A stretch of DNA of 32,208 nucleotides from Bacteroidota bacterium (GCA_023251675.1 JAHEYJ010000018.1:1-32208), one strand, 5' to 3'; counted from the stretch's first letter, positions 2,072 to 30,216 are shown. Numbers and translations are program-made. The notes: generated by a model from the letters alone, not told the origin.

Positions 2072-2968
2072 CTAATCATCATCATCTTCCTCATTATTAT
2101 GGTTCTCTCCTTCGCCGGAGCTTGAACCTTCATTTTTATAATGTGAACCTTCGATCTCATGTTCATTGCCACTTCTATGACAGGAAACGCAGTTGCCGAA
2201 ATTATAAATGCCTTCTTCATTATGCTTACCTGCTATTCTATTTTCAGAATGTTCATGACACCCATAGCAAGTGTACGAACGGAAATCGGAAGCGAAGTGA
2301 CAGATCTTGCATTCAGCATTGTGGTTGTTATCAAGCGCGAAATATTTTGAATGCTCAAAGGTGGATGGCTTCCATTTTTCAGTACGGTGGCATTGGATGC
2401 AATCATCGTTCAACGGATCATGGTAGGAGTCTGTGGGTTTCCGGTGACAGGAAAGGCAGTTGGTGATAGAACCCTTCAGCATTGCGTGATCAAAATTTGC
2501 AGGCTTCCAGCCGGAGGTCTGGTGGCATTGGCCGCAATCCTTGGATAATAAGGTATGAAGTGAATCTTGCCTGGAAGCATGGCAGCCGGCGCAATTTAAT
2601 TTTACCGCACGGGCAAGCGCTTCGTGAGAAAAATTCCGGATGGAGGTTCCGGGCTTGGTTCCCTCGTGATCAGTATGGCAGGAAATGCATTCTTGTCCTG
2701 CTAATTGCTGGTGGAATAAAATATTTTTCCTGTTCTTCCCCGATCGGCCAGAACTGCTGTCTGGAGAAATACCGATCTCAGAAAGTTTATGGCAGGCAAT
2801 GCATTTTTCAGAAGGGAGCCCTTTGAAGAACGTATGGCAGGCATTGCAATCATCTTTTATTTTTTTATGCCCTTCCAGCAATTCTCCCGGATTGACCATC
2901 AGGTACGGAAACTGGAACAAGGCATAAATGCAGCTCAGGATCATCAAAAGTAGGATGGATCTTTTCAT
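2072..2968 (-). CDS. Ten-heme c-type cytochrome (cytochrome c3/c7-like)
   Basis: About 298 residues. I choose the ATG at 2968 because it overlaps the stop codon of the upstream gene in an ATGA arrangement and begins with a hydrophobic export signal or membrane anchor (MKRSILLLMILSCIYALFQF). An in-frame start 84 bases upstream would run inside the neighbour. Ten CXXCH heme motifs are present: CNACH, CIACH, CISCH, CAGCH, CGQCH, CLSCH, CIQCH, CKICH, CYGCH and CVSCH, with many spare His residues that could act as distal ligands. The layout is that of class III-type multiheme electron carriers. It probably sits in the periplasm and takes electrons from the membrane cytochrome b encoded directly upstream. 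The protein ends in a low-complexity acidic tail (EEDDDD), mirrored in the first gene of the operon. Redox partner and physiological acceptor cannot be read from the sequence. Confidence 0.85.
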   Translation of the reverse strand: MKRSILLLMILSCIYALFQFPYLMVNPGELLEGHKKIKDDCNACHTFFKGLPSEKCIACHKLSEIGISPDSSSGRSGKNRKNILFHQQLAGQECISCHTDHEGTKPGTSIRNFSHEALARAVKLNCAGCHASRQDSLHTLLSKDCGQCHQTSGWKPANFDHAMLKGSITNCLSCHRKPTDSYHDPLNDDCIQCHRTEKWKPSTFEHSKYFALDNNHNAECKICHFASDFRSYTCYGCHEHSENRIAGKHNEEGIYNFGNCVSCHRSGNEHEIEGSHYKNEGSSSGEGENHNNEEDDDD

Positions 2969-3537
2969 TTGCTGAACAGAATGATTGATAAAACATGCAG
3001 CAACGCCAGTACGCCAAGGAGTAACGTGATCGGAATATGGACCGACCGCCATTCTTTCATCAGGTCAACGGTAATAGAGTCCATGTGAAGTTTGTCTTCC
3101 ACTTCATTTTCACTGAACCCTTTATTAAAGAGTTCCTTTTTCTTTTCATCCAGTGCTGATTTTGCAACAGCCAGTATGAATTTCCCGATAAATCCACTGG
3201 CCACAGCAATGATCAGCAGAAAAATAGCGAGCCAGGGTAAAAGAGCATGGAAGTGAATACCGGCATGCACCATTACCATCAAGGCGCCGATCCAGGCAAG
3301 AACTTCATGCGTTTGTAAAAGAAGTTTAGGAGAACCTAAATTTATCATCTTCCTTTTTTGCAATGAATAAATAAAGGAGATGAGGATAAGCAAGGTGCCG
3401 GTCACTCCAAAATAAAGGCCCAGAAAAACCAGCTGAAGTTTGTGGAGTATGTAATCGAACAGGAGCGTGGAGACGAAAAGAAGGCTGTACCAGATAATAT
3501 AAGGCAATACATTTTTGAAGAAAATGGATTTCGTCAT
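2965..3537 (-). CDS. Membrane diheme cytochrome b-like protein
   Basis: Integral membrane protein of 190 residues with about five hydrophobic segments. Two HX13H pairs stand out, His77/His91 and His167/His181. That is the spacing seen in ferric-reductase-like and other cytochrome b proteins where two helices hold a pair of stacked b hemes. Additional His95 and His97 follow the first pair. A charged loop (about 125-160) separates the two helices. Its stop codon overlaps the start of the ten-heme cytochrome, implying translational coupling. The likely role, inferred, is to carry electrons from the quinone pool across the membrane to that cytochrome. No FAD/NAD-binding domain is present, so it is not a complete ferric reductase. 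Alternative: cytochrome b561-like protein. Confidence 0.65.
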   Translation of the reverse strand: MTKSIFFKNVLPYIIWYSLLFVSTLLFDYILHKLQLVFLGLYFGVTGTLLILISFIYSLQKRKMINLGSPKLLLQTHEVLAWIGALMVMVHAGIHFHALLPWLAIFLLIIAVASGFIGKFILAVAKSALDEKKKELFNKGFSENEVEDKLHMDSITVDLMKEWRSVHIPITLLLGVLALLHVLSIILFSK

Positions 3538-3549
3538 TTACATGGAATA

Positions 3550-4062
3550 TTAATCATCATCATCTTTCTGTCCGTCCTGCTCACCGCCGTCTTCATTTTG
3601 CGGGTTCTGCGTTCCAGCTGCATTGTTTCTTAATTCTGAATGGTGGATCTGGCCGCCTAAATATCCGGTATTGGCCATGGTCCCAAACGTAATAGCAGAA
3701 AATAAAAGAGCCGCTGCAAGGGCATGTTTGGCATAATTTGATTGCCGGTGCATGAGGAAAAAAGAAATAAGCGCAAGCATGCCCGTCACTTCCATCAGCC
3801 AGAAGGCCAGTTCGGCTGCTTCTTCGTGTTCTTCGATCATGGGTTTGGAAATGTCGGCAATGTTTTTTACCGCATGTTCGGCAGGTTCTCCGGTGAGAAA
3901 TACCGGAATCGCGGCCAAGGCCATTATTACCAGCAGAAAGATCCCCAAAAGTTTTACCTGATGGTTTTTTGAATACATCCCACATGCGAGCAGCGCCATG
4001 CCGATCAATGACCCGAAGATCGGGAAGTGATTTAACAGAAGATGCAGATGAGTTGGGTTCAT
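3550..4062 (-). CDS. DUF2231-like small membrane protein
   Basis: 170 residues with four predicted transmembrane helices (roughly 12-30, 38-56, 84-103 and 112-130). The N-terminus contains several His residues in the context HLHLLLNHFPI, which is typical of DUF2231-type membrane proteins; those His residues could be heme or metal ligands, but this is not shown. The C-terminus is a hydrophilic tail rich in Asn, Gln and Asp ending in DDDD, closely similar in style to the acidic tail of the ten-heme cytochrome of the same operon. It is the first gene of the minus-strand operon, 12 bases ahead of the cytochrome b gene. It is likely a structural or redox subunit of the same membrane complex. The family assignment is by motif recognition only. 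Confidence 0.55.
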   Translation of the reverse strand: MNPTHLHLLLNHFPIFGSLIGMALLACGMYSKNHQVKLLGIFLLVIMALAAIPVFLTGEPAEHAVKNIADISKPMIEEHEEAAELAFWLMEVTGMLALISFFLMHRQSNYAKHALAAALLFSAITFGTMANTGYLGGQIHHSELRNNAAGTQNPQNEDGGEQDGQKDDDD

Positions 4063-6895: not shown

Positions 6896-6989
6896 TCACA
6901 TGCTACGGGTTTAAGTATGTATCATAAGAGATAGAAATGTTTATTTTTGGTCTTCGGAATCAAAAGGCTGAATTGAAAAATTGTATTTT

Positions 6990-7625
6990 ATGAAAACGAT
7001 AAAGAAGGTTATTGCCATTTGTATTTTACTATGCGCATTCATTTTAGTATTCAGTTGCGGATCTTCGGACAGCAGTACCAAGCCAAATGAGGTATCGGAA
7101 AAAAGGGATTCGGTTTATACCGGAGCAGAACTCTTCAGGCTTAATTGCGCAGGGTGCCACGGATTGAACAGGGAAGGAAATCCACCCAATTTTCCTCCGC
7201 TTATCTATGTAAAAGAGAAGATGTCAAAAGATCAGATCCATAGCCAGGTGCTTCATGGAAAAGGATTGATGCACTCTCTTGCTCATCTCTCTGACAGCGA
7301 AGTAAATGCCATTATTGCTTATCTGTTCAATGAAGCGGAGCAGCAAAAGGTCAGTGAGAATTATTCGTCCGAAATTCTTGGGAAGAATATTGTAATGAGC
7401 AATTGCGTAACCTGTCACCGCCTCTCGGAGAAAGATTCTTTACCCGCAGATGCCAAGAAATTATGCCCTTTAGTAGAACCTTCTGCTCTTCAGACAGGTG
7501 CCAAAAAACTTAATAAGGAACAGTTTCTTCTCATTCTTAAAACAGGACCATGCTACATGCCTTCCTTTGATTATTTGAACAAAAACGATAAGGAAGCAAT
7601 CTGGTCCTATCTGAGAACCATTTGA
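6990..7625 (+). CDS. Diheme cytochrome c lipoprotein
   Basis: About 211 residues from the ATG at 6990; a TTG nine bases upstream is a weaker start. A lipoprotein signal ends at LVFSC with lipidated Cys23. Two class I cytochrome c domains follow. The first has CAGCH at 53-57 and a candidate distal Met94 in GKGLMHSLAHL. The second has CVTCH at 139-143 and Met190 in the PCYMPSF context. The second domain is degenerate between motif and ligand. It is likely a membrane-tethered periplasmic electron shuttle. The gene stands alone, about 95 bases after moaA and 170 bases before a pseudogene, and could serve the iron-sulfur/NrfD modules downstream. Partner is unknown. Confidence 0.8.
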   Translation: MKTIKKVIAICILLCAFILVFSCGSSDSSTKPNEVSEKRDSVYTGAELFRLNCAGCHGLNREGNPPNFPPLIYVKEKMSKDQIHSQVLHGKGLMHSLAHLSDSEVNAIIAYLFNEAEQQKVSENYSSEILGKNIVMSNCVTCHRLSEKDSLPADAKKLCPLVEPSALQTGAKKLNKEQFLLILKTGPCYMPSFDYLNKNDKEAIWSYLRTI

Positions 7626-8627: not shown

Positions 8628-9581
8628 ATGTCACAAAAAACAGAAGAAAATAACGAAAAAAAGACAAGGGAGGATAACAGCAGACGTGATTTTTTAAAGC
8701 TAGGTGTTTTTGCTGCTGGCCTTACGGTTGCCGGTGCAGGTCTCCAAAAAGCTTTTTCTGAGGAAAAAGAAACCGGAGAAAAAGTGAAAGTACTGACTAC
8801 TGAGGGTAAAGTAGTTGAAGTGGATACTGCACATATTAAAAAAGCGGAGGTTTGTTGTGTTTCTCCTAAAGAATCAAGAGAAGGCATTCCCAACAAAAAA
8901 TGGGTGATGGTCATCGATCTTTCTCGCTGTAAACACGCTCTCAAATGCCAGCATTCATGTCAGAAATATCACCATCTCTCCGGGATGAATGTATGGTTGA
9001 AAGTATTCAAAATGCAGGAAAGCGAAAATACAGCGCCCTATTGGATGCCGAAGCCGTGTATGCATTGCGATCGGCCGCCTTGTGTGAAAGTTTGCCCGGT
9101 AAGTGCTACTTATAAAAGGAGCGATGGAATTGTACTTGTTGATAACGAACGATGTGTTGGATGCCGATTCTGTATGGCGGCATGCCCTTATTCAACACGT
9201 TCATTTAACTGGGAAGAGCCCGAGTTACTTTCTGAAACTACTGGTGAAACCTATTCTCCTGAAAGAGGGTTTCCTCAAAAAAGAGGTACAGTTGAGAAAT
9301 GTGATTTCTGTCCTGATTTGCTAAGACAGGGAAAACTACCTCATTGTGTTGCCGCATGCCCCAACGGAGTTTTTTATATGGGAGATATGACTGAAGATAC
9401 AGTAACCAATGGAGATGAAACATTGCGTTTCAGCCAGTTAATGAAAGACAAAAGCGGTTACCGGCTTAATGACATATTAGGAACACACCCAAGCGTTTAT
9501 TATTTGCCTCCGGTAAATCGATTATTTCCGTTTAAAGAACCCGTTGCAGAAAATTCGGATAAGGAAAAAAAAGCTGAATAA
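8628..9581 (+). CDS. Tat-exported four-cluster ferredoxin subunit, copy 1
   Basis: 317 residues, member of the periplasmic iron-sulfur subunit family of complex iron-sulfur molybdoenzymes (PsrB/NrfC/DsrO-like). A Tat signal (SRRDFLKLG, residues 18-26) plus hydrophobic stretch to about 43 indicates export as a folded protein. Cluster motifs run as follows: C101-x5-C107-x3-C111; C144, C147, C152, C156; C176, C179, C182, C186; and C225, C228, C240, C244. In the first motif the usual second Cys is Ala104, leaving 15 ligands instead of 16. The protein probably relays electrons between the NrfD-type membrane subunit encoded next (86 bases on) and a periplasmic partner. It has a clear paralogue at 12062-12973 with the same substitution. 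No catalytic molybdopterin subunit is adjacent, so naming it after one enzyme is not justified. Confidence 0.88.
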   Translation: MSQKTEENNEKKTREDNSRRDFLKLGVFAAGLTVAGAGLQKAFSEEKETGEKVKVLTTEGKVVEVDTAHIKKAEVCCVSPKESREGIPNKKWVMVIDLSRCKHALKCQHSCQKYHHLSGMNVWLKVFKMQESENTAPYWMPKPCMHCDRPPCVKVCPVSATYKRSDGIVLVDNERCVGCRFCMAACPYSTRSFNWEEPELLSETTGETYSPERGFPQKRGTVEKCDFCPDLLRQGKLPHCVAACPNGVFYMGDMTEDTVTNGDETLRFSQLMKDKSGYRLNDILGTHPSVYYLPPVNRLFPFKEPVAENSDKEKKAE

Positions 9582-9667
9582 TCTTCAATAGTAACTTATT
9601 CATTAATAGTTTATAAAAAAAGAAATTCAACCCATCAATTTTAAGATAAGGAATATTTAATACACTT

Positions 9668-11038
9668 ATGGAAGAACCCAAAAAAATAACCAATGAAGCT
9701 GAGGCAATTCAGATGTTGCGTCAGTATAACGATGACCTGCTGCCCAGAAAATTCGGCATTGTAGGTAATACATGGACGGCTCTGCTGATCATCATATTTC
9801 TTACCGGGGTATATTGTTATACAAATCAGCTCAGGTATGGTTTAAGTATAACCGGAATGAGAGACTTTGTGTTCTGGGGAATTTATATTTCAAATTTTGT
9901 ATTCTTTGTTGCAATCAGCCTGGTTGGTTCGTTGGTAACGGCAGTACTTTATTTGTTAAATATTCCCTGGCGCGCGCCCCTCTCTCGGATTTCAGAAGTA
10001 ATTGCAGTTGCGGCAGTTATTTTTGCAGGGTTAATTATCATCGTAGATATGGGCCGCCCGGAGAGAATCGTGAACATGTTTCTTCATGGCCGTATTCAAT
10101 CACCAATTGTTTGGGATGTCATGGTTGTAACAACTTATATGACACTTAGTATTCTGCTTTTATATTTTCCCTTACTCCCGGGTATTGCCTTTTGCCGAGA
10201 CAATCTAAAAGGAATACCCAAATGGCAGAAATGGATGTATAATATCCTTTCATTAGGGTGGAAGTATAGTCCGGAACAATACCATATTGTAAAGAAGGCG
10301 ATAACTATTTTATCTGTAATGATCATCCCAGTAGCTCTGTGTATTCATACCGTTACTTCCTGGCTGTTTGCAAGTACCTACCGTCCCGGGTGGGACAGTA
10401 CCAACTTCGGAGCCTATTTTGTTTCCGGTGCATTTGTGGTTGGAGCTGGAGGAGTGATAGCCGGAATGGCTGTCCTTAGAAAATTTTACCCTTCCTACAA
10501 AACCTATCTTACCGATCTTCATTTTGACAGAATGGGTAAGCTGTTGGTTCTTCTTACTGTAGTTTATGCCTATTTTTCAATCAATGAATACCTGATTCCG
10601 GCATATAAAATGAAGGGAGAAGAAGCCGAACATCTGCATGAATTATTCACCGGTTATTACGCCCCTTTATTCTGGTCGGTCCAATTTTTCGGAATGGTAC
10701 TGCCGATCATTGTACTTCTCTTTAAAAAGGGAAGGAAGCCAATTCCTATGTTTATAATGGCGGTTTTGGTTGTTGTAGGAGCGTGGTTTAAGCGGTACCT
10801 GATTGTGATCCCAACCATGTCCTATCTTCCCATACAGGAAATTCCGGAAGCCTGGAAACATTATGCACCCACTTTTCAGGAATGGGCAATTACGTTAGGC
10901 TCACTGGCAGGTGCATTGTTGATCATTACTTTCTTTGTTCGTTTTTTCCCGATCATTTCAGTGTGGGAAGTAGCAGAAGAAAGAGGAGTTTCTCATGAAA
11001 CTATTTACAAACATTTAAATGAAGGAAATGAAAAATAA
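9668..11038 (+). CDS. NrfD/PsrC-type membrane subunit, copy 1
   Basis: 456-residue polytopic inner-membrane protein with roughly ten hydrophobic helices. The NrfD family resemblance lies in the second helix region (FVFWGIYISNFVFFVAISLVG) and in the segment VDMGRPERIVNMFLHGRIQS at about 130-150. NrfD-type subunits bind menaquinone/menaquinol and exchange electrons with the periplasmic iron-sulfur subunit. No heme ligands are conserved in this family, and some members translocate protons. The length exceeds the classic NrfD/PsrC (about 320) and is nearer to DsrP/ActC-like proteins. It lies between the iron-sulfur gene and the uncharacterised anchored protein. The second copy at 13010-14380 is exactly the same length, so the module was duplicated as a unit. 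Confidence 0.85.
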   Translation: MEEPKKITNEAEAIQMLRQYNDDLLPRKFGIVGNTWTALLIIIFLTGVYCYTNQLRYGLSITGMRDFVFWGIYISNFVFFVAISLVGSLVTAVLYLLNIPWRAPLSRISEVIAVAAVIFAGLIIIVDMGRPERIVNMFLHGRIQSPIVWDVMVVTTYMTLSILLLYFPLLPGIAFCRDNLKGIPKWQKWMYNILSLGWKYSPEQYHIVKKAITILSVMIIPVALCIHTVTSWLFASTYRPGWDSTNFGAYFVSGAFVVGAGGVIAGMAVLRKFYPSYKTYLTDLHFDRMGKLLVLLTVVYAYFSINEYLIPAYKMKGEEAEHLHELFTGYYAPLFWSVQFFGMVLPIIVLLFKKGRKPIPMFIMAVLVVVGAWFKRYLIVIPTMSYLPIQEIPEAWKHYAPTFQEWAITLGSLAGALLIITFFVRFFPIISVWEVAEERGVSHETIYKHLNEGNEK

Positions 11039-11042
11039 TTTT

Positions 11043-11975
11043 ATGAACCACTTATTTAAAAAATTACGACATGGAACTATTTCCGTTTCGTTAATAACTG
11101 TTACGTGTCTCTTTATAAATAAAGAGGCTATTTCTCAGGCAGAGAAAGATTCTGCCAAACTTTCTGCAACGATGACCGTAAGTTATAAAGCATCGAATGG
11201 CAGCAGGAGTATAAAAGTGAATTTAAAGCGGAAGGTAGAGAAAAAATTTATCGCTGTAGATAATTTGAAAACACCGGTCAGCCTTTATTTTAAATCAGTG
11301 AAAGAACATAATCCTGCTGATGGTACCGGCTTAGTTGGCAAACTTTATCTTGGTAAAGATGGTGAAGGTGTTTTTGAAATTCCTGACGATATTAATAAAC
11401 TGATTTCCGGCTTGCATAAGTACACGTTCATTGCCAAATTTGATGCTGATCCTATATACGAAGATGCTGAAGAAGAGATTTCAATTGCTGATTCAAAAAT
11501 TACGCTCAGCTATTTAGGTGAGGATTCCATTAAAACAGCAACGGCTACACTTTATGAATGGAAAGACAGCGCCTATGTTCCCGTTGCAGGCGCCGAACTT
11601 AAGTTGGGCATTAAACGCACTTTCAGCATATTTCCTATAGGAGAAAGTGGAGCCGTTACGGATTCAAGCGGAAAGGTATCAGCGGATCTTCCTTTGGATA
11701 TGCCCGGAACCTTTGACCGGAAAATAACCATCGTCGCAAAAATTGATGAACATGAATCGTTCGGAAATGTGGAAGTATCAAAAGAAGTTCCTTGGTCCGT
11801 ACTTCCGGAGCCGATTCCTGAAATTGGTCGCGCCTTATGGGCGACTGGCGATAATGCACCATATGTTTTGGTTTTTTCATCCCTATCAATAATTGCCGTT
11901 ATTTGGGGAACTATTTTTTACCTGATATCATTGCTAATAAAAATCAGGAAAATTGGTCGGGATAAATCATCCTGA
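11043..11975 (+). CDS. Exported membrane-anchored protein of unknown function, copy 1
   Basis: I do not recognise a named family. About 310 residues from the ATG at 11043, four bases after the nrfD stop; in-frame ATGs at 11019 and 11028 would overlap it. A signal peptide ends near residue 32 (ISQ), followed by about 235 residues predicted by eye to be beta-rich, with Gly/Asp turns such as KDGEGVFEIPDD and TDSSGKVSADLP. A conserved segment RALWATGDNAPY leads into one transmembrane helix (about 272-294, ending WGTIFYLISLLIKI) and a short basic cytoplasmic tail. The body would lie in the periplasm. No Cys-based cofactor motif is present. It pairs with a homologue in the second module (14403-15323), sharing the RALWA and VWGTI segments, which implies it is a fixed subunit of the complex. 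Confidence 0.75.
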   Translation: MNHLFKKLRHGTISVSLITVTCLFINKEAISQAEKDSAKLSATMTVSYKASNGSRSIKVNLKRKVEKKFIAVDNLKTPVSLYFKSVKEHNPADGTGLVGKLYLGKDGEGVFEIPDDINKLISGLHKYTFIAKFDADPIYEDAEEEISIADSKITLSYLGEDSIKTATATLYEWKDSAYVPVAGAELKLGIKRTFSIFPIGESGAVTDSSGKVSADLPLDMPGTFDRKITIVAKIDEHESFGNVEVSKEVPWSVLPEPIPEIGRALWATGDNAPYVLVFSSLSIIAVIWGTIFYLISLLIKIRKIGRDKSS

Positions 11976-12061
11976 TGAATGAGAGGAGTCATAAGTTATT
12001 TCCTGTAAACTGTTGTTCTTTGAGGTGTTAAAAATAATTTTTAACTCTCAAAAAATAACAT

Positions 12062-12973
12062 ATGGAAGATGAGCAAAAAAACAGGCGCAATTTTCTCAAA
12101 TTTGGATTTCTTGCGGCTGGATTAACGGCAGCAGGTGTAGCCCTTAATAAAGTAGCATCAGGCGATGAGGGCGCTGAAGAAAAAGTTAAAGTTCTTACGG
12201 CCGATGGAAGATTAGCCGAAGTAGCTAAATCAAAAGTAGAAAGCTCCGAATCACTTTCCGCAGCAAGCAAACATGTCCGCCAGGGAATTCCGGGCAGGAA
12301 ATTTATTATGGTCATTGACCTCACGCGTTGCAAGAATGCAAGGAAATGTCTTGAAGGCTGCCAAAAGATGCACAACTTTCTTCCGCCGGTTGAATGGCTG
12401 AAAGTAAAGGAAATGCAGGATTCGGAATTATCCGGAAAATATTGGTTTCCACAATTATGTTACCAGTGTGATAATCCTCCTTGTTGTAAAGTATGCCCGG
12501 TAGGAGCTACTTTTAAACGCAGTGATGGGATTGTTGGAATAGATAACGAGCGATGTATCGGGTGTAAATTTTGTATGGCCGCTTGCCCGTATTCGTCCCG
12601 AAGTTTTAATTATGGAAACCCCAAACAAGTTGAATATTCTAAAAATCATCCCTTAAAAAGTTGTCATACCATGGACCCGAATATGGTGGGTACAGTATCC
12701 AAATGCGATTTTTGTCCGGACTTTGGTTCTAAAGGAATTTTGCCTGCCTGTGTAAGATCCTGCCCGAATGGTGTAATCTTTTACGGCGATGAGAACGAAG
12801 ATGTAGTCTCAAACGGAGAGCAAGTGCTGCGCTTAAAAGACCTTCTTGTAAATAACGGTGGCTATCGGCAATTTGAAGTTTTCGGAACAAAACCAAGAGT
12901 ATATTATCTGCCCCCGGTTAATAGGTTGTTTCCATTTAAACCGGATCCGGTAGAACATAATCAGGAGGAGTAA
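12062..12973 (+). CDS. Tat-exported four-cluster ferredoxin subunit, copy 2
   Basis: 303 residues, paralogue of the protein at 8628-9581. The Tat signal is NRRNFLKFG (7-15). Cluster motifs are C90-x5-C96-x3-C100; C133, C136, C141, C145; C165, C168, C171, C175; and C215, C218, C230, C234. As in copy 1, the second ligand of the first motif is Ala (Ala93), so the substitution predates the duplication or is under selection. Extra Cys142 and Cys201 occur here only. Copies share VVDL/VIDL-type context, the RSDGIV segment and the C-terminal VYYLPPVNRLFPFK. The gene starts 86 bases after the first anchored protein, the same gap as between the first iron-sulfur and NrfD genes. The role is periplasmic electron relay to or from its own NrfD partner. 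Confidence 0.88.
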   Translation: MEDEQKNRRNFLKFGFLAAGLTAAGVALNKVASGDEGAEEKVKVLTADGRLAEVAKSKVESSESLSAASKHVRQGIPGRKFIMVIDLTRCKNARKCLEGCQKMHNFLPPVEWLKVKEMQDSELSGKYWFPQLCYQCDNPPCCKVCPVGATFKRSDGIVGIDNERCIGCKFCMAACPYSSRSFNYGNPKQVEYSKNHPLKSCHTMDPNMVGTVSKCDFCPDFGSKGILPACVRSCPNGVIFYGDENEDVVSNGEQVLRLKDLLVNNGGYRQFEVFGTKPRVYYLPPVNRLFPFKPDPVEHNQEE

Positions 12974-13009
12974 TGAACAAGAAAATACAATAAGAATAAA
13001 AAATACTTT

Positions 13010-14380
13010 ATGAAAAACGAAACCACTGCTGTTGACAGCGTTTTGATGAATAAATACGAAGCAATGCATGATGAATTGCTTCGCCCAATTCAAAAAACCG
13101 GGTTGGCAGGGAAAATTTGGATTGGATTTCTGTTTTGTGTTTTTTTTGCAGGCGTTTTTGCGTTTTACACACAAGAGACAAAAAGCAAATATGAGACCAT
13201 ATCGCTGAATAATTACACCATGTGGGGAATATATATATCAAACTTTGTTTTTTTTGTTGCATTAAGTTTAGTAGGGGCACTCATGTCTGCAGTTTTGAAA
13301 CTTACAAACTTTGAGTGGTACCGACCTTTATCCCGCATCGCCGAAGTGATTGCTGTAGCAGCAATCATGTTTGCTGGTGTAGGAATTATCGTTGCTATGG
13401 GTCATCCAGAGCGGCTTTATTTTTTATTGACACATGGCCGATTGCAATCCCCAATAATTTGGGACATTGTTGTAATCATAACTTATTTTGTTGCAACCAG
13501 TTTGTTTTTATTTATCCCTTTAATACCCGGCATTTCACAATTAAGCAACCATTTAAAGGATAAACCCAAATGGCAAATGTGGATGTATAAAAAATTAAGC
13601 TTGAGCTGGAGAGGAACCCCTGAGCAATGGAAAATAGTTAAAAGATGCATTACCATTTTAGCGATCTTAATTATTCCTTTAGGTATCTCCATCCACACCG
13701 TAACAGCCTGGCTTTTTGCCTCTACATTAAGAGCGGAATGGAATAGCACAAACTTCGGGGCCTATTTTATTGCCGGTGCATTTTTATTGGGCGTGGCAGC
13801 TGTCATAGTAGGCACATTTTTCTTCCGTAAATACTATCGTTTTGAAAAATACCTGACAGATTCTTATTTCGATAAAATGGGAAAGATGCTTGTGTTTCTT
13901 TCAGGCGTTTATTTTTATTTTAATATCAATGAATACCTGGTACCTGCATTTAAAATGGATAGTATGCATTCGCAATACCTGTTAGATGAATTTACGGGTA
14001 AAGATGCAATTTTGTTTTGGCTGGTATTCTTATTTGGAATTTTTGTTCCGGCAATACTCCCTCTTTTCAAATCAATGCTCAAGCCTTGGCCATTAACGGT
14101 TATTGCAATCCTTGTTGTAATTGCCGCCTGGTTTAAACGCTATATTATTGTGATACCGGGATTATCTCATCCCTATCTCCCAATCCAGAATGTTCCCCAT
14201 TCATGGACACATTATGTCCCAAGTTTAATTGAATGTATGGTAGTAGCAGGAATTTTTGCTGCTGCACTTCTCTTTATCACCTTGTTTTCTAAATTTTTTC
14301 CAATTATATCCGTGTGGGAAGTTGCAGAAGGCGATGGAGTTTCTCTTGAAAAAATTAATTTATTATCAAAAAAAGCATAA
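13010..14380 (+). CDS. NrfD/PsrC-type membrane subunit, copy 2
   Basis: 456 residues with about ten transmembrane helices, identical in length to the copy at 9668-11038. Shared landmarks include WGIYISNFVFFVA, the SRIAEVIAVAA helix, VAMGHPERLYFLLTHGRLQS (GHPER here, GRPER in copy 1), the INEYLVPAFKM segment, WFKRY and the end FPIISVWEVAEGDGVS. These conserved charged residues inside or next to helices are candidates for the quinone site or a proton path. It is 36 bases after its iron-sulfur partner and 22 bases before the anchored protein, so all three are one transcript. Divergence between copies argues for distinct substrates, potentials or partner proteins, not simple dosage. Confidence 0.85.
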   Translation: MKNETTAVDSVLMNKYEAMHDELLRPIQKTGLAGKIWIGFLFCVFFAGVFAFYTQETKSKYETISLNNYTMWGIYISNFVFFVALSLVGALMSAVLKLTNFEWYRPLSRIAEVIAVAAIMFAGVGIIVAMGHPERLYFLLTHGRLQSPIIWDIVVIITYFVATSLFLFIPLIPGISQLSNHLKDKPKWQMWMYKKLSLSWRGTPEQWKIVKRCITILAILIIPLGISIHTVTAWLFASTLRAEWNSTNFGAYFIAGAFLLGVAAVIVGTFFFRKYYRFEKYLTDSYFDKMGKMLVFLSGVYFYFNINEYLVPAFKMDSMHSQYLLDEFTGKDAILFWLVFLFGIFVPAILPLFKSMLKPWPLTVIAILVVIAAWFKRYIIVIPGLSHPYLPIQNVPHSWTHYVPSLIECMVVAGIFAAALLFITLFSKFFPIISVWEVAEGDGVSLEKINLLSKKA

Positions 14381-14402
14381 GCAACAATATAAATCTCTAT
14401 TT

Positions 14403-15323
14403 ATGAACTTCAATAATACAGCTCAAAATAAATTTATCAAAAGTTTGATCGCTGCAATACTTTTCCTGTTGATTCCTTTCGTCTATGGTTATAGCCAGGA
14501 TTCGACTGAAAAGAAAAAACCACTATTGAGTATTACTTATTATAATGTTAACAGCGATTCTTTTTTTGTAAAAGTAAGTTCTGGATACAAGGATGAAAAA
14601 TTCTTTCCTATCGAATATCAAAATGTTAAATTATATTTGAACGAAGCCGATAAGAATAATTTTCTTGGGGATGTTATGACTGACCCCAAAGGAGAAGGAA
14701 TAATTCACCTTCCACAAAAATTTAAGGGAATGATAGATTCGCTCTCAACCTTTGATCTTGTTGCAGAGACGGATGCCGATGTGAAATATAAAGCGGCTAT
14801 CGGATCAACCACAATTGAAAATGCCTTTTTAGACGTACAAATCAGGATCGTTGATACAACTAAGATGATTCGGGTTTATGTTTATAAAAAAGGAGCAAAA
14901 GTTAAATCACCCATTAAAGGTGTTGAGATGAGTTTTTTTGTAAAAAGAATGGTTGGATTATTCCCTTTATCAGATAAAACCATTTCTACAGACAGTGCCG
15001 GAATGGCTGAAATGGAATATGCAATTACGGATATGCCAGGTGATTCGTTGGGGGCTATACTTGTTGGTGCTAAAATTGCTGATGCAGATACATATGGAAA
15101 TATATTTAGTATGAAAGAAACATTCTGGGGAGCTAAAACATTTAATAATTATGAATCTGTTCGAGCCTTATGGGCTCCTGCAGACAGAGTGCCGGTTTGG
15201 CTGATCGTTCTTGCTTTAGGGATCATTATTACTGTTTGGGGAACAATCTTATTTATTATTTATCAAGTTTATAGGATTTTTAGACTTGGTCAGCAAGAAA
15301 TTAAAAGGGAAGCAAATCTTTAA
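14403..15323 (+). CDS. Exported membrane-anchored protein of unknown function, copy 2
   Basis: 306 residues from the ATG at 14403, 22 bases after the NrfD stop; the frame extends upstream into that gene but those codons are overlapped. A signal peptide ends near residue 32 (YGYSQ). A predicted beta-rich periplasmic body follows, then RALWAPADRVPVW and one transmembrane helix (about 268-292, containing ITVWGTILFIIYQVYRI) with a basic tail. Its order of features, length and the RALWA/VWGTI segments match copy 1 at 11043-11975, although overall identity by eye is low, so the pair has diverged much more than the iron-sulfur or NrfD subunits. It ends 30 bases before a cytochrome c gene, so it may form the docking surface for that cytochrome; this is inference. 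Confidence 0.75.
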   Translation: MNFNNTAQNKFIKSLIAAILFLLIPFVYGYSQDSTEKKKPLLSITYYNVNSDSFFVKVSSGYKDEKFFPIEYQNVKLYLNEADKNNFLGDVMTDPKGEGIIHLPQKFKGMIDSLSTFDLVAETDADVKYKAAIGSTTIENAFLDVQIRIVDTTKMIRVYVYKKGAKVKSPIKGVEMSFFVKRMVGLFPLSDKTISTDSAGMAEMEYAITDMPGDSLGAILVGAKIADADTYGNIFSMKETFWGAKTFNNYESVRALWAPADRVPVWLIVLALGIIITVWGTILFIIYQVYRIFRLGQQEIKREANL

Positions 15324-15353
15324 AAACGAAACATAAACCAATAAACACATTTT

Positions 15354-15785
15354 ATGAAAACTACATCGAAAAACAAATTTTTAAAAGCTATCATTATGCT
15401 CTTTGCCATTGTTGGAATGGTTGACTTGTCATTTATCAGTTATGCACAGGATGCCAAAAAGAAACCATGGGTGGTTCCTGAAAAATCCAAGACAGCAAAA
15501 AATCCTGTTAAGTCTGATGCTGCTAATCTGGAGTCGGGAAAAGCATTATTTACAAAACATTGCAAGTCTTGCCATGGTGTAAAAGGATTGGGTGATGGGC
15601 CTAAATCAAAGGAACTTAATACACCAACTGGTGATTTTTCTGTTGATCTAAAGGACCAAACGGATGGAGATCTTTTTTACAAAACCAAAGAAGGAAGAGA
15701 TGATATGCCTTCATTCGGCAAGAAGATTCCTGATGACAATGAAATCTGGGCATTAGTAAATTACTTGAGGTCATTGGCGAAATAA
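15354..15785 (+). CDS. Periplasmic monoheme cytochrome c, copy 1
   Basis: 143 residues: signal peptide to about residue 31 (SYA-QDAKKK), a Lys/Pro-rich linker, and a class I cytochrome c domain with CKSCH at about 70-74 and the distal Met in DDMPSFGKK. The linker PWVVPEKSK could act as a flexible tether. It is 30 bases after the second anchored protein and directly followed by a strong terminator, so it closes the 8-gene-module transcript. It is the most likely electron acceptor or donor for the iron-sulfur/NrfD complexes. A paralogue with about 20 amino-acid differences by my count lies 470 bases downstream. Confidence 0.9.
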   Translation: MKTTSKNKFLKAIIMLFAIVGMVDLSFISYAQDAKKKPWVVPEKSKTAKNPVKSDAANLESGKALFTKHCKSCHGVKGLGDGPKSKELNTPTGDFSVDLKDQTDGDLFYKTKEGRDDMPSFGKKIPDDNEIWALVNYLRSLAK

Positions 15786-15794
15786 AGAGATATT

Positions 15795-15830
15795 AAAGTA
15801 GGACCGATCTTATATCGGTTCTACTTTATT
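15795..15830 (+). terminator. Rho-independent terminator after cytochrome c copy 1
   Basis: A 14-bp stem (AAAGTAGGACCGAT with ATCGGTTCTACTTT, one G-T pair) and a 5-base CTTAT loop are followed by a T-rich tract, starting ten bases after the stop codon. Confidence 0.85.
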
Positions 15831-16190
15831 TTGATAATTATGTTTGCACAAGATCACTGAGTCGAGAATTTTTTTCCAAATTATTTCACTACTTTATTAT
15901 AGCAGTAATTTTTTTTCAAGTCATTTTATTTATAAAATCCTTTTCTTTAAAAGATTCTATCCCCTATCGAATAATATGTATTTATACTTCTAAGTATTGC
16001 CATTTTCTAGGGGAAATATACTTTATAATATTCTATGTCACTCTTAAAAAGATGATGACAGTCAGGTTTTCATTGACTTTTCTTTTCTACCTATGGCATA
16101 GTCTTTGTAAAAAGTGAGATGTAATATTTAATAATACCCTTCACGTCATTAAAAAATTTATAATTTTAAATTTAAAATTTAAAAACAAAT

Positions 16191-16220
16191 TTTGACAAGA
16201 ATAAGAAGTAATTATTTTTA
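16191..16220 (+). promoter_or_regulatory. Candidate promoter for cytochrome c copy 2
   Basis: TTTG at 16191-16194 and TATTTTTA at 16213-16220 are 18 bases apart, resembling the Bacteroidota -33/-7 pair (TTTG and TAnnTTTG) with one mismatch in the -7 box. Transcription would begin about 30 bases before the start codon. Confidence 0.35.
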
Positions 16221-16255
16221 AAAAAAGTATCTACAAATTAAACCCTAAACAATTT

Positions 16256-16693
16256 ATGAAAACAACATCAAAAAACAAATTCTTAAAAGCAGCTATTATG
16301 TTGCTTGCCATCGTTGGAATGGTGAACCTGTCATTTACGAGTTATGCACAGGATGCAAAGAAAAAACCATGGGTGGTACCAGAGAAATCAAAAGCAGTTA
16401 AAAACCCTGTAAAATCGGATGCGGCAAATATTGAATCAGGGAAAGCTTTATATACCAAGCATTGCAAATCGTGCCATGGTGTAAAAGGATTGGGCGATGG
16501 TCCAAAATCAGCTGAGCTAGCAACTGCATGTGGTGACATTTCTGTTGATTTAAAAGATCAAACGGATGGAGAAGTTTTTTTTAAAGTAAAAGAAGGCAGA
16601 GATGATATGCCATCATTTGGTAAAAAAATTCCTGATGACAATGAAATTTGGGCACTTGTGAACTACGTTCGTTCATTAGCTCCTGCAAAATAG
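16256..16693 (+). CDS. Periplasmic monoheme cytochrome c, copy 2
   Basis: 145 residues, paralogue of 15354-15785. It has the same signal peptide, PWVVPEKSK linker, CKSCH heme motif and DDMPSFGKK ligand loop. Differences cluster between the heme motif and the Met loop, where this copy reads AELATACGD in place of KELNTPTGD. That adds a non-heme Cys at residue 92, which could form a disulfide-linked dimer or a contact with a partner. Codons differ at many third positions although the protein is conserved, pointing to an old duplication held by selection. It is isolated by a terminator on each side and a candidate promoter of its own, so it can be expressed separately from the modules. Confidence 0.9.
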   Translation: MKTTSKNKFLKAAIMLLAIVGMVNLSFTSYAQDAKKKPWVVPEKSKAVKNPVKSDAANIESGKALYTKHCKSCHGVKGLGDGPKSAELATACGDISVDLKDQTDGEVFFKVKEGRDDMPSFGKKIPDDNEIWALVNYVRSLAPAK

Positions 16694-19927: not shown

Positions 19928-22552
19928 ATGAAAAAATTATTACTTCATTTTGCTGGTATTGCCTTGGCGATATTTTTTTCAGCAAACCTGTTTGCTCAAA
20001 CAGTAGGTACATTAACTTTTTCTTTTACACCCCTCACCCAATCTCCCGGCTATTCCGGTACTAAAAATGATTTAGCTGTCTGGATTCAGAATACAACAGG
20101 TACATTCGTAAAAACCAAACTTCGTTATGTTGGAAGCGGAACCAGCGATCACCTGCCTACCTGGGCGGTTAATTCGGGAGGAACAGCGGGGAATGCTCTG
20201 TCTACTGCGTGCAACAAGTTTGATGCAACCACAGGAGCGACTTTGGCAAATTTCTCCGCAAAATCCTTTGTTTGGGATGGGAAAAATTGCACAACCACGG
20301 CTAACGGAACTACTGTTGCCGATGGAACATACAAAGTAACCATTCAGGAAACCTGGAACCACGGAACTGGTGGAACGGTTACGACTTCGTTTACATTTAC
20401 AAAAGGACCTGTTGCCGATCATCAGACCCCTGCAAGCACCACGTATTTTTCAACTATTAAACTGGATTGGGTTCCTGTTACATCCGGAGTTACAGTTACA
20501 ACAAGCGTTGTCAACGTAAAATGTTTTGGAGGTAATACCGGGTCGGCAACTGCTACGCCGGCCGGAGGGACACCGCCTTATACGTATTCATGGAATACAT
20601 CCCCGGTTCAAAATACAGCTACGGCAACAGGGTTAGCGGCCGGTTCTTACACTGTAACTGTTCAAAATGCAAGCGGATCAACTACTTCTGTCGCTTCCGT
20701 TACGCAGCCAGCATCTGCTCTTTCTTCCAATGCTACTAGTACAAATGCAAATTGTGGTTCTACCAATGGAACGGCCAGCGCAACTGCAAGCGGTGGAACA
20801 GGGGGTTATACCTATTTATGGTCAAATGGCAAAACAACAGCTAATATTACCGGGCTTTCAGCAAATGCCTATACAGTAACCGTAACTGATGCCAACGGAT
20901 GCACATCTACGCATGTTGCGAATGTGCTTAACTCCGGCGCCCCTACTGCATCCATTGCTCCAACAAATGTATCAGGATGTTTCGGAAATTCCAATGGCAG
21001 TGCGACTGTAAATGCTTCCGGTGGAACCGGCACACTGACCTATTCCTGGAATACAACTCCAGTTCAAAATACTCCAACTGCAATTGGCCTTGCAGCCGGA
21101 ACCTATACAGCAACTGTTACTGACGCAACCGGTTGTTATGTTAAAGTAGCTACAACTATTACTCAACCTGCTGCCATTGCGAATTCTCTTACTCCGACGG
21201 ATGCTTCTTCGTGTTCAGTAAATGACGGGAAAGTTACATCTTCTATTTCCGGAGGCACTCCAACTTATACTTATCTTTGGAGCAACGGCAAAACCACTTC
21301 TTCGATCACTGGCCTAGGGGCTGGCACTTATTCGCTTACTGTAACTGACGCCAATGGATGCACAAAGGTTTCCAGTGCCGTGGTGAACTGCACTTCTGGC
21401 GGAAGCAACGATGCAGGTGTTAATGCAGTCAGTAATCCAAACGGATCTATCTGTGCTTCTTCATTTGCTCCTACAGTAACGATTAAAAATTTCGGAACAA
21501 CAACACTGACTTCATGTACGATTAATTTTTATGTCGATAATCCTCCTGCTTCTGCGTTCAACTGGGTGGGTTCTCTTGCTTCGGGAGCTACGGGGAATGT
21601 AAATCTTCCTGTGATATCGGGCATTTCAGTAGGTGCACATACATTCTATTGTTCAACCAGTAATCCTAACGGAGGTAGCGATGTTAATACTGGTAATGAC
21701 CAGTCACAAAGCAATTTTAACGTAAGCGCAACTACAACAGCTATCCCATTAATCGAAGGTTTTGAAACCAGCGGTAATTTCCCAGCAGGCTGGGCTTTAT
21801 CTAATCCAGATAATGATGCGGCTTGGCAAGTTGTCCCCGGTATCGCAGCGACAGGTGTGTACTCTATGGGATTTGATAATTGTGATGGTAACGGACCTGG
21901 CGCAGCTATGAACGGGCTTGTAGATAGAATTAGTACCAATGCCTACGATTTTACAAGTGCAACTGCGTCAGCAAGCATGACGTTTGATCTGGCATATGCG
22001 GTGCTTAACTATCACAACATCACTTACGCTGATACGCTTGCTATATATGCTTCTTCTGATTGTGGTACTACATGGAATCGGGTGTACTATAAAGGAGGAG
22101 CAACGCTTTCAAGTATTACTACCAGCACATCTTGCTGGGCACCCAACGGATGGGATTGGGTAAATGAGAATGTCAATCTGGGCAGTTACAGCGGGCAATC
22201 CAGCGTAATGTTTGCGTTTGAGAACGTTTCAGGTTGGGGAGAATGGATTTATCTTGATAATATCAACATCTTATCGTCTACCGGCGTTGAAAATATAAAC
22301 CCTTTAGCCGGATTCAGTATATATCCTAATCCTGCAGGAACATCTTTCACAATTGAGGGGTCCTGCAATTCAGCTAAAATAAATTACACCATTTATGATC
22401 TGGTTGGATCAGAAGTGAAGACAGGAGCAATCGTTACGACGGGTAATAGTTTTAATGGAAAAGTGCAGGTAAGTGACATTTCCAGAGGAATGTATTTTAT
22501 TAAAATCAATGATGGAAAAAATACCTGGACCCAAAAAGTAAATCTCCAGTAA
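19928..22552 (+). CDS. T9SS-secreted multidomain surface protein with SprB-like repeats
   Basis: 874 residues. A signal peptide (1-23, ending NLFAQ) leads into a DUF2271-like domain (about 27-188; VWIQNTTGTFVKT, DATTGAT, DGTYKVTIQETW). Four SprB-like repeats follow (about 198-490; pattern GGTPPYTYSWN...TGLAAGSYTVTVTDANGC). A CARDB-like domain (about 493-600; NFGTTTLTSCTINFYVD) comes next, then a MAM/jelly-roll-like domain (about 608-785; EGFETSGNFPAGWALSNPDND), and a T9SS type A sorting domain (about 794-874; FSIYPNPAGTSF). It is exported by Sec, moved over the outer membrane by T9SS and attached to or released from the surface. SprB repeats are known from gliding adhesins, but also occur in non-gliding species. 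It may depend on the sigma factor upstream. The jelly-roll domain recurs in the next gene. Confidence 0.88.
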   Translation: MKKLLLHFAGIALAIFFSANLFAQTVGTLTFSFTPLTQSPGYSGTKNDLAVWIQNTTGTFVKTKLRYVGSGTSDHLPTWAVNSGGTAGNALSTACNKFDATTGATLANFSAKSFVWDGKNCTTTANGTTVADGTYKVTIQETWNHGTGGTVTTSFTFTKGPVADHQTPASTTYFSTIKLDWVPVTSGVTVTTSVVNVKCFGGNTGSATATPAGGTPPYTYSWNTSPVQNTATATGLAAGSYTVTVQNASGSTTSVASVTQPASALSSNATSTNANCGSTNGTASATASGGTGGYTYLWSNGKTTANITGLSANAYTVTVTDANGCTSTHVANVLNSGAPTASIAPTNVSGCFGNSNGSATVNASGGTGTLTYSWNTTPVQNTPTAIGLAAGTYTATVTDATGCYVKVATTITQPAAIANSLTPTDASSCSVNDGKVTSSISGGTPTYTYLWSNGKTTSSITGLGAGTYSLTVTDANGCTKVSSAVVNCTSGGSNDAGVNAVSNPNGSICASSFAPTVTIKNFGTTTLTSCTINFYVDNPPASAFNWVGSLASGATGNVNLPVISGISVGAHTFYCSTSNPNGGSDVNTGNDQSQSNFNVSATTTAIPLIEGFETSGNFPAGWALSNPDNDAAWQVVPGIAATGVYSMGFDNCDGNGPGAAMNGLVDRISTNAYDFTSATASASMTFDLAYAVLNYHNITYADTLAIYASSDCGTTWNRVYYKGGATLSSITTSTSCWAPNGWDWVNENVNLGSYSGQSSVMFAFENVSGWGEWIYLDNINILSSTGVENINPLAGFSIYPNPAGTSFTIEGSCNSAKINYTIYDLVGSEVKTGAIVTTGNSFNGKVQVSDISRGMYFIKINDGKNTWTQKVNLQ
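20515..21385 (+). repeat. Four tandem SprB-like repeats of about 230 bases
   Basis: Repeat units begin near 20515, 20748, 20975 and 21208. Each encodes a Cys-starting segment, a G-x-x-x-Y-x-Y-x-W core, an LxAGxYxxTVTD core and a closing Gly-Cys. The first and third units share a SWNTxPVQNT segment and the second and fourth share LWSNGKTT, so pairs appear to have duplicated together. Confidence 0.8.
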
Positions 22553-22610
22553 TTTAACGGCAAGTAGCATCGTGTGATAAATAATAATCTTTAATTCTAA
22601 TGATATCAAT

Positions 22611-23525
22611 ATGCGCAAAGCATTTTATTTTCGTTTACTACTTCTGCTTGTAGGAGTGATTCTTTTCTTTCATTCATGTGTAAAGGACAGAGGCCCGCTG
22701 CCAGAACCTCCTTATAGTTTTACGTATGTTGAAGGATTTGAAAGCAGTTTAAGTCTTCCTTCGGGATGGACACTTTTTAACCCTGATAATGATTGTGCAT
22801 GGCAGGTTGTTAACACGGCACACAGCACGGGTTTAAACTGTATTGGATTTAATAATTGTGATGGAAACGGCACAGCAGATCCAACGGGAAGAAAAGACCG
22901 CTTCACTACGCATGCTTTCGATTTTTCTAAAGCAACTACGGTAAGTTTATCGTTTGATGTTGCCTATGCTGTCCTTAATTTTAAAGGCGTTGTTTATACC
23001 GATTCACTGGCAGTTTATGCATCTACTGACGGCGGTGGTACCTGGAATCGGATCTATTACGATGGAGGATACACGCTTACAAATATTCCCGAATTAACCA
23101 CTTCGCCTCCATGCTGGGCACCCACTTCTTCTTCGGATTGGAGAACCGATAAGACCAGTTTAAATAGTCTTGCAGGGAAATCGAATGTGTTGTTTGCTTT
23201 TGAAAATATTTCAGGATGGGGAGAATGGATCTTTCTTGATAACATCTCAATTGTAGCTACCAATCAGGCACCCTGTAATGCAACTTTTGCAACCGATGTT
23301 CTACCTATTATGCAAACTGAATGCGGCAAAAGCGGATGTCATGATGGGAGCAGTCAATCAGATCTTAATACCTATGCAGGAGTAAAGTCAAGAGTCGATA
23401 ACGGAGGCATAAAAAAGAGGATGTTCGATGGAAACGGAGGTTTTATGCCAGCAACGGGTAAACTGCCGGATGCAACATTAAATAAAGTAAAGTGCTGGAT
23501 GGATAATGGAGCCCTTAACAATTAA
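22611..23525 (+). CDS. Lipoprotein with jelly-roll domain and CX4CH heme-like motif
   Basis: 304 residues. Lipoprotein signal with lipid Cys at about 23 (FFHSC). Residues about 34-218 are a MAM/jelly-roll-like domain highly similar to that of the T9SS protein before it (EGFESSLSLPSGWTLFNPDND, AYAVLNF, SGWGEWIFLDNI). The C-terminal 85 residues (CNATFATDVLPIMQTECGKSGCHDG, in two parts, then DNGGIKKRMF and MPATGKLPD) look like a degenerate cytochrome c domain. Its heme motif is CGKSGCH, that is CX4CH rather than CXXCH, with a likely distal Met in GGFMPATG. CX4CH is known to bind heme in some multiheme cytochromes. It is followed by YceI and barrel genes that often travel with such lipoproteins in Bacteroidota. 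Heme binding is predicted, not certain. Confidence 0.7.
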   Translation: MRKAFYFRLLLLLVGVILFFHSCVKDRGPLPEPPYSFTYVEGFESSLSLPSGWTLFNPDNDCAWQVVNTAHSTGLNCIGFNNCDGNGTADPTGRKDRFTTHAFDFSKATTVSLSFDVAYAVLNFKGVVYTDSLAVYASTDGGGTWNRIYYDGGYTLTNIPELTTSPPCWAPTSSSDWRTDKTSLNSLAGKSNVLFAFENISGWGEWIFLDNISIVATNQAPCNATFATDVLPIMQTECGKSGCHDGSSQSDLNTYAGVKSRVDNGGIKKRMFDGNGGFMPATGKLPDATLNKVKCWMDNGALNN

Positions 23526-23561
23526 CAATAAATAAACCTCAACTCACTAATCAAAAACACT

Positions 23562-24122
23562 ATGCAAACAAAAAAAATCCTGCTGATTGCGCTCATTTCT
23601 TTCGGAAGTCTTATGCTCAAAGCCCAGATTTATATGGGTAAAACAAGTGAAATAAGTTTTTTCTCTAAAGGACCTATTGAAGATATTTATGCTATCAACA
23701 AATCTTCTAAGCCCATTTTAAATTCAACCACAGGAGATGTTGCAATAAAGATCACCATCAAAGGTTTTGTGTTTGATGATAAGCTGATGGAAGAGCATTT
23801 TAATGAAAAATATCTCGAGAGTGATAAATACCCTTATGCAACTTTCAAGGGAAAAATGGCGGATAAGATCGATGACTTTAAAAAAGATGGGACATATACG
23901 GTCAGCGTTCCTGGTAAACTGAATATGCATGGCGTAGAAAAAGACCTGACCATTAAAGTCAATGCGGTGATCAAAGACCAGATCATCACCTATGATAGCA
24001 AATTCAATATCACGATTAAGGACTATAATATTGAAGTTCCGAAATTGGTGATGCAAAATATCGGAGAAGTGATGGAAATTACTGTAAAAGGAACATTAGC
24101 AGAATATGTTTCTCCAAAATAA
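23562..24122 (+). CDS. YceI-family periplasmic lipocalin-like protein
   Basis: 186 residues with an N-terminal signal peptide (about 1-21, ending LKAQ) and the YceI fold core: KTSEISFFSKGPIEDIYAIN, IKGFVFDDKLMEEHFNEKYL, YPYATFKGKM, VPGKLNMHGVEKDLTI and the C-terminal FNITIKDYNIEVPKL. YceI proteins bind polyisoprenoids or amphipathic molecules and occur with cytochrome b561-like and cytochrome c genes. It is 36 bases after the cytochrome-like lipoprotein and about 75 bases before the barrel gene, so these three likely form an operon. The ligand is unknown; a quinone-like compound is possible but not shown. Confidence 0.85.
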   Translation: MQTKKILLIALISFGSLMLKAQIYMGKTSEISFFSKGPIEDIYAINKSSKPILNSTTGDVAIKITIKGFVFDDKLMEEHFNEKYLESDKYPYATFKGKMADKIDDFKKDGTYTVSVPGKLNMHGVEKDLTIKVNAVIKDQIITYDSKFNITIKDYNIEVPKLVMQNIGEVMEITVKGTLAEYVSPK

Positions 24123-24196
24123 TTTTTTCTTATCTGACCTGACCTCCTTGTTTAATAAAATCCATGAATTTTCTTTATAAAGAAAAATCTTACTTT

Positions 24197-27156: not shown

Positions 27157-27434
27157 AAATAATAAATCACGAAATAACTTTGGCTGATGTCCAATAGAAG
27201 AAACTTTGATGCCGGGGAGTTTGACAATAGTATGAACTTGTATGCATCGGGGACTATGGGGGTTCCCAAGTGTGTGCAACTCACTCACAAGCTCATTCTC
27301 TCTCAAAAGGCAGGACAAGAAACCGGAATCCGGATGAGAACTTCGGACTCCCTTCTTGCCTGCCTTGGCATCATTGTATTACGAATGTAAGGTATGCCGA
27401 GACCAGTGAGCAAACAACTTTAGAATGAGGACCA
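27157..27434. other. Atypical spacer inside the BcrD operon
   Basis: 278 bases between two genes of an otherwise tight operon. The segment is richer in G and C than the neighbouring spacers and contains several short self-complementary stretches, for example CCGGAATCCGG near 27331. A 67-residue reading frame spans 27187-27390, but its translation resembles no family and lacks typical composition, so I do not call it a gene. It may be a structured RNA, or a relic of an inserted element. Confidence 0.35.
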
Positions 27435-27977: not shown

Positions 27978-28009
27978 ACCAGGATATATTTTTATAAAAA
28001 TACGTGTAC

Positions 28010-30136: not shown

Positions 30137-30216
30137 ATATCAGGATGGCGGGTTTTAGAAAAGAACCATAGAACGATATCTCAATTCTAAAATCTAATAT
30201 CTCAAATCTCTTTTGT

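Follow-up and report, generated by a model that had tools for sequence, protein, structure and literature searches.

A membrane-bound iron–sulfur/NrfD module with a new anchored subunit in Bacteroidota, predicted to link menaquinol to cytochrome c

We analysed bases 1–32208 (32,208 nucleotides, "the window") of the 34,240-base contig JAHEYJ010000018.1 from a Bacteroidota bacterium (GCA_023251675.1), whose 3.4-Mb genome is 96% complete. Between 8628 and 15323, two sets of an iron–sulfur (FeS) protein, an NrfD-type membrane protein and a membrane-anchored exported protein lie head to tail and are followed by two monoheme cytochromes c, the layout described in an original prediction for this DNA. 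All eight genes were confirmed as open reading frames at the coordinates below, with family matches far beyond chance.

Two FeS–NrfD–anchored protein sets and their subunits

The module genes follow one another in the order given here, with two neighbouring features added last:

8628–9581, + strand: FeS protein 1, exported by twin-arginine translocation (Tat), DsrO/PsrB-like, 15 of 16 cluster cysteines
9668–11038, + strand: NrfD 1, about 10 transmembrane segments, quinone-site residues D/S/D/L as in DsrP, nearest solved relative ActC
11019–11975, + strand: anchored protein 1, exported, two beta-sandwich domains and a C-terminal transmembrane helix; overlaps the end of NrfD 1
12062–12973, + strand: FeS protein 2, Tat-exported, with the same group I cysteine loss as FeS protein 1
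13010–14380, + strand: NrfD 2, an old paralogue with quinone-site residues A/S/D/L (Asp to Ala)
about 14403–15323, + strand: anchored protein 2, putative ATG start at 14403
15354–15785, + strand: monoheme cytochrome c 1, ActE-like
15795–15827, + strand: stem-loop with a T-rich tail, read by eye from the sequence, probable operon terminator
16256–16693, + strand: monoheme cytochrome c 2, 87% identical to cytochrome 1
6981–7625, + strand: diheme cytochrome c lipoprotein upstream of the sets, candidate electron partner
22611–25528, + strand: Cx4CH-cytochrome lipoprotein, YceI and DUF5777 barrel, a widespread core set

Because anchored protein 1 overlaps NrfD 1 and every gap as far as cytochrome 1 is shorter than 90 bases, 8628–15785 is probably one operon. 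Cytochrome 2 follows cytochrome 1 after 470 bases, beyond the terminator-like stem, and, given this T-tailed stem, is probably a separate transcription unit.

The FeS proteins (303–317 residues) begin with the twin-arginine motifs SRRDFLK and NRRNFLK and match Fer4_11 (E = 4e-21 and 9e-17 for FeS 1 and 2). Their nearest NCBIfam models are DsrO (E = 4e-55 and 6e-49), TtrB, QrcC and NrfC, all of them scoring under the cut-off, and their nearest solved relatives are PsrB and ArrB. Fifteen of the 16 cluster cysteines are invariant, and the remaining one, the second of group I, is alanine in both window proteins and replaced in 49 of 59 FeS proteins (hand count from the alignment). Owing to this missing cysteine the cluster content is probably three [4Fe-4S] and one [3Fe-4S], which makes the label "four-cluster" imprecise. 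By contrast, ActB of alternative complex III (ACIII) has lost the second cysteine of group III, and its [3Fe-4S] cluster is the one near the quinone (PMC8552683); by analogy, the altered group I cluster would not be the membrane-proximal one.

Both NrfD proteins match PF03916 (E = 9e-34 for NrfD 1, 3e-26 for NrfD 2) and have about 10 hydrophobic segments each. ActC is the closest solved structure (E = 2e-49), and a maximum-likelihood tree groups the copies near ActC/ActF and away from DsrP, a placement that is safe in its broad outline alone, the tree having long deep branches and a midpoint root. At the quinone site as defined in PMC8076601, where ActC has H/S/D, NrfD 2 has lost the acid that NrfD 1 retains. 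Alanine takes its place in NrfD 2 and six other rows of the alignment and cysteine in seven others, with two row pairs possibly being duplicates; at some loci, such as L089, the alanine type is the only copy detected. The loss could mean a different role for NrfD 2.

NrfD 1 and NrfD 2 share 52% protein and 60% DNA identity and fall into separate well-supported clades, each with members elsewhere: NrfD 1 is 82–83% identical to copies in other Bacteroidota metagenome-assembled genomes, and NrfD 2 reaches 65% with locus L080. The "tandem-duplicated module" of the original prediction therefore stands as two complete sets head to tail and falls as a recent duplication, the sets being old paralogues. 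A third complete set (FeS, NrfD, anchored protein, cytochrome) lies on contig C117, followed by an EB_dh lipoprotein, a Cx4CH cytochrome and a DUF5777 barrel. The genome also carries part of a canonical ACIII (ActB C-terminus, C, D, E and F) on another contig, C240.

Might the tandem pair form one complex after the manner of ActC and ActF, in which NrfD 1 oxidises menaquinol and NrfD 2 does not? ActF likewise lacks the site residues (PMC8076601), and a D-type NrfD is paired with an A- or C-type one in the window and in tandem loci L011, L012, L015 and L064. We regard such a complex as unlikely, however, since each copy comes with its own FeS protein, other tandems pair D with D (L062, L081, L086), and an A- or C-type is the only detected copy in G313/L089 and G347/L084.

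The anchored proteins have no match in Pfam or NCBIfam. Both end in a hydrophobic segment, and the predicted model (mean confidence, pLDDT, 79) consists of two beta-sandwich domains and a C-terminal helix, for which Foldseek returned only macroglobulin- and fibronectin-like sandwiches with low TM-scores; short forms (L015, L022) have one domain only. The single cysteine of anchored protein 1 lies outside any cofactor motif, and with no redox fold among the PDB matches, a redox function was rejected. The anchored protein is a new, undescribed subunit of a respiratory complex. The cytochromes match PF13442/PF00034 and resemble the ActE of the same genome (blastp E = 1e-11 to 1e-14). At 87% amino acid and 79% DNA identity they are the only close twins of the locus, in line with their earlier description as such.

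Further genes in the window lie outside the module. At 2075–4062, on the minus strand, genes for a class III-like cytochrome of about 10 CxxCH motifs, a DUF2231 protein and a membrane protein run divergently from a Crp-type regulator at 4750; they might form a separate electron-transfer operon. The region 19928–23525 encodes an SprB-repeat protein with a type IX secretion system (T9SS) tail and a choice-of-anchor J lipoprotein with a C-terminal Cx4CH cytochrome domain, which have a common segment (54–55% identical). At 26317–31434 are 2-hydroxyacyl-CoA dehydratase-like genes, namely a BadF/BcrA-type ATPase, an acyl-CoA synthetase-like ATP-grasp protein and an HGD-D protein.

Conserved gene order and the question of a catalytic subunit

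Carriers of the module were found with a profile of the anchored protein, which matched four of seven same-genus genomes and 39 of 395 genomes of the class (28 of 197 genera), about 10% of those sampled. A phylum-wide sample biased to other groups gave 11 matches in 396 genomes, including a weak one (E = 5e-4) and a single clear case from beyond the class. Gemmatimonadota matches from an initial NrfD homologue search proved to be ordinary ACIII operons. The neighbourhoods of the profile matches and the loci from the homologue search make up 51 loci, a count that includes same or near-identical genomes (L014/L056, L015/L057 and L013/L058). The order FeS–NrfD–anchored protein–cytochrome, whose conservation in Bacteroidota had been proposed as a check, is present in most of them, and the subunits do occur together elsewhere: NrfD was found in 49, the cytochrome in 47 and the FeS protein in 46, alongside DUF5777 in 34, a Cx4CH cytochrome in 33 and an EB_dh protein in 21 (two clusters, 16 + 5, possibly overlapping). 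The order is replicated in L155, outside the class, and in L158, and four further loci show the same pattern within their contigs' reach.

L013 (6066–11564) and L058 hold a variant set, in which the FeS protein, a divergent NrfD and the anchored protein precede two more genes, one for an SPFH-type protein, so named on the basis of its sequence, and one for a 504-residue NapC/NrfH-type 6-heme cytochrome. Near the module locus of L079, a cytochrome b domain is fused to about 11 heme c motifs (10112–12841).

As the original prediction had stated, no catalytic subunit is among the window genes, and no catalytic gene recurs across the 51 loci. Its premise that such subunits normally come with one is not supported, for FeS–NrfD modules that lack a molybdoenzyme are well established (PMC3534657; PMC11434368; PMC6303296). 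Known or proposed quinol dehydrogenases of this type include SirCD of Shewanella and CbcSTU of Geobacter (PMC11434368), the NrfCD pair of Melioribacter (PMC3534657) and NrfCD of E. coli, which is annotated as a putative menaquinol–cytochrome c reductase.

That the sets belong to a molybdoenzyme complex with a distant catalytic gene, of which moaA at 5846 would be a trace, is highly improbable and largely refuted. Although moaA stands beside the set in the window and in L015/L057, the sole protein of this nearly complete genome that matches PF00384 (molybdopterin oxidoreductase) is an NAD-type formate dehydrogenase (TIGR01591, 811 bits, cut-off 666). Its gene on contig C116 adjoins FdhD, a NuoF-like protein and molybdenum cofactor genes (the latter named from sequence), a cluster that accounts for moaA in the window. 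Five of the 39 carriers have no PF00384 match at all, and a missing molybdoenzyme partner was ruled out as a candidate on these grounds.

Proposed reaction and candidate electron acceptors

Gene content, conserved order, homology, residues and co-occurrence are what we observed; from these we infer the reaction and the direction in which it runs, together with the scaffold role and the identity of the acceptor. With a probability of about 0.6, each set would be a compact menaquinol:cytochrome c oxidoreductase built on an FeS–NrfD redox module, with nitrous oxide (N2O) respiration as the favoured acceptor route. As a reaction class, electron transfer from menaquinol to cytochrome c is likely. 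NrfD would bind menaquinol on the periplasmic side, the FeS protein would take up the electrons through its clusters, and the ActE-like monoheme cytochrome c would collect them and hand them on. As it has no cofactor motif, the anchored protein may be a periplasmic scaffold, perhaps a docking surface for the cytochrome that replaces ActA and the cofactor-less ActB domain. The terminal acceptor would be encoded elsewhere, the favoured candidate being anaerobic N2O respiration by NosZ. The oxidoreductase proposed in the original prediction remains the best reading; the general kind is already known from NrfCD, SirCD, CbcSTU and ACIII.

NosZ above its curated cut-off is present in 29 of 39 carriers versus 17 of 41 family-matched non-carriers (Fisher P = 0.004; within-family permutation P = 5e-5). 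Within the same genus, all four carriers and none of the three non-carriers have it, and it was found in four of four further carriers versus 19 of 64 other, systematically picked non-carriers (P = 0.01). Pooling gives 33/43 versus 36/105 (P = 4e-6), a figure uncorrected for phylogeny and with hand-picked non-carriers. The nos operons examined comprise a cytochrome c, NosZ and NosL/D/F/Y-like genes (these named from sequence), and none contains a quinol dehydrogenase of the NosR or NosGH kind. Bacteroidota count among the major reducers of N2O. For the route from menaquinol to NosZ in bacteria with nos operons of this composition, the module offers a definite candidate that can be put to the test, carried by about 10% of the class genomes sampled. 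NirK was not supported as acceptor, being above the cut-off in only 3 of 39 carriers.

The NosZ link fits electron export, and this bears on the reverse direction, in which menaquinone would be reduced with electrons from periplasmic or outer cytochromes, as by Qrc. FeS–NrfD modules do run both ways (PMC6303296), and the quinone-site acid is D here as it is in QrcD and DsrP (PMC8076601); NrfD 1, however, scores weakly against QrcD (60 bits, cut-off 570) and groups with ActC, and we consider reversal very unlikely.

Several points weigh against menaquinol oxidation for N2O respiration. NosZ is missing in 10 of 43 carriers and present in a third of non-carriers; an anaerobic way of life common to the carriers may account for the co-occurrence; the nos genes do not adjoin the module; the ACIII of the same genome could feed the cytochromes; the acid presumed to handle the quinone proton is gone from NrfD 2; and the direction of electron flow is a prediction. 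Moreover, the stable neighbours of the module are genes of outer-membrane type.

The typical linked arrangement is X–cytPC–DUF5777–FeS–NrfD–anchored protein–cytochrome, X being an EB_dh heme-domain lipoprotein (PF09459), a 6-heme lipoprotein or a choice-of-anchor V protein (CxxCH, T9SS tail). The module might accordingly be the inner-membrane half of an outer-membrane, or extracellular, electron-transfer system running from menaquinol through FeS–NrfD and the monoheme cytochrome to the Cx4CH cytochrome, the DUF5777 barrel and surface heme lipoproteins or T9SS-secreted cytochromes, an alternative we hold to be possible if doubtful. Besides the recurrence of DUF5777 and Cx4CH genes in about two thirds of the loci, it draws on a porin-like predicted model of DUF5777 (match to NanC, E = 7e-8), on the excess of genomes with at least two DUF5777 genes among carriers (35/39 versus 52/356 non-carriers, P = 7e-22, hand count from a table), and on the FeS–NrfD modules of Geobacter, which are linked to chains of this sort (PMC11434368), and of Melioribacter, where such a link has been proposed (PMC3534657). 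On the other side, the barrel model is of low confidence (pLDDT 62), and the cytochromes beside the barrel are mostly of the Cx4CH single-motif type, with 6- to 7-heme proteins in few loci, and most loci have no periplasmic multiheme wire of the MtrA kind; no multiheme cytochrome spanning the barrel, as in a porin–cytochrome conduit, was seen in the loci examined. DUF5777 is present in 342 of 395 class genomes and its core set also occurs without the module, so that the barrel has some wider role, and the window itself has only the cytPC–YceI–DUF5777 core set nearby.

This core set is near-universal in Bacteroidia (L101–L103 and most class genomes), and same-genus genomes without the module carry it, for which reason the window's YceI–DUF5777 pair was rejected as a module-specific partner. 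In G009, which has NosZ and no module, a CYT–DUF5777–cytPC set stands beside a NapH-like polyferredoxin with TPR repeats (L107, 4530–7874), and in G093, also without the module, one lies near the RIC iron–sulfur repair protein and a COX1-like membrane protein (L109, 2062–8464). These arrangements suggest that CYT–DUF5777–cytPC forms a unit which can receive electrons from different quinol dehydrogenases, perhaps in the context of nitrogen oxides. More speculatively, module and X–cytPC–DUF5777 together could be a complete trans-envelope conduit from menaquinol to the cell surface, unrelated to MtrCAB; if so, it would tentatively end in EB_dh-domain, choice-of-anchor V or multiheme surface proteins. 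Were the outer-membrane unit the true acceptor, extracellular electron transfer would have a further, new class; DUF5777 in any case gains its first redox context. Within the library searched, we found no paper naming DUF5777 and none combining EB_dh, Bacteroidota and extracellular electron transfer. NosZ co-occurrence and gene linkage disagree on the acceptor.

Comparison with known systems

The module is not ACIII, not a Dsr complex and not a molybdoenzyme. With ACIII (ActABCDEFG) it shares an ActC-like NrfD, an ActE-like monoheme cytochrome, an FeS partner and the predicted reaction. It differs in the quinone-site D where ActC has H, in its separate, Tat-exported FeS protein with the group I rather than group III cysteine loss, and in lacking the ActA multiheme cytochrome, ActD and ActF, which are absent from the window and not recurrent in the 51 loci, as well as the molybdoenzyme-like domain of ActB, no such gene being adjacent. 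Nor does it look like a known ACIII or complex iron–sulfur molybdoenzyme operon with the catalytic gene just outside the window, as no catalytic gene recurs in the 51 loci; instead of a molybdenum/tungsten bis-pyranopterin guanine dinucleotide subunit of the Psr, Ttr, Dms or Nar kind, the only PF00384 protein of the genome is the formate dehydrogenase.

DsrO and DsrP of DsrMKJOP are the closest NCBIfam models for the FeS and NrfD proteins, and the D/S/D/L site is shared, whereas the scores stay below the cut-offs (DsrO 187 and 167 bits, cut-off 200; DsrP 132 and 93 bits, cut-off 350). DsrM, DsrK and DsrJ are not among the window genes, the only part of the genome searched for them. Like the porin–cytochrome complexes (MtrAB, OmbB–OmaB–OmcB), the module has a barrel and cytochromes beside it in most loci, but that barrel is of the DUF5777 family and the cytochromes are mostly monoheme Cx4CH proteins.

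Closer in principle are NrfCD and SirCD, where an FeS protein and NrfD without a molybdopterin subunit feed periplasmic cytochromes; the module differs from these in its ActC-like NrfD of about 10 helices, its extra anchored subunit and its monoheme partner, and the pentaheme nitrite reductase NrfA that marks NrfABCD is not among the window genes. CbcSTU and CbcVWX of Geobacter likewise combine a cytochrome c, an FeS protein and a membrane subunit without an enzyme subunit and are linked to extracellular electron transfer, but they are set apart, going by their description, by multiheme cytochromes and by having no anchored protein reported (PMC11434368). The module falls within the general class of FeS–NrfD quinol dehydrogenases, with an FeS protein and an NrfD bearing the quinone-site signature (less one residue in NrfD 2), menaquinol oxidation being its predicted activity. 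Judged by its sequences, it would work like NrfCD, SirCD and CbcSTU, with a membrane subunit of the ActC type, a cytochrome of the ActE type and, as its new element, a scaffold subunit.

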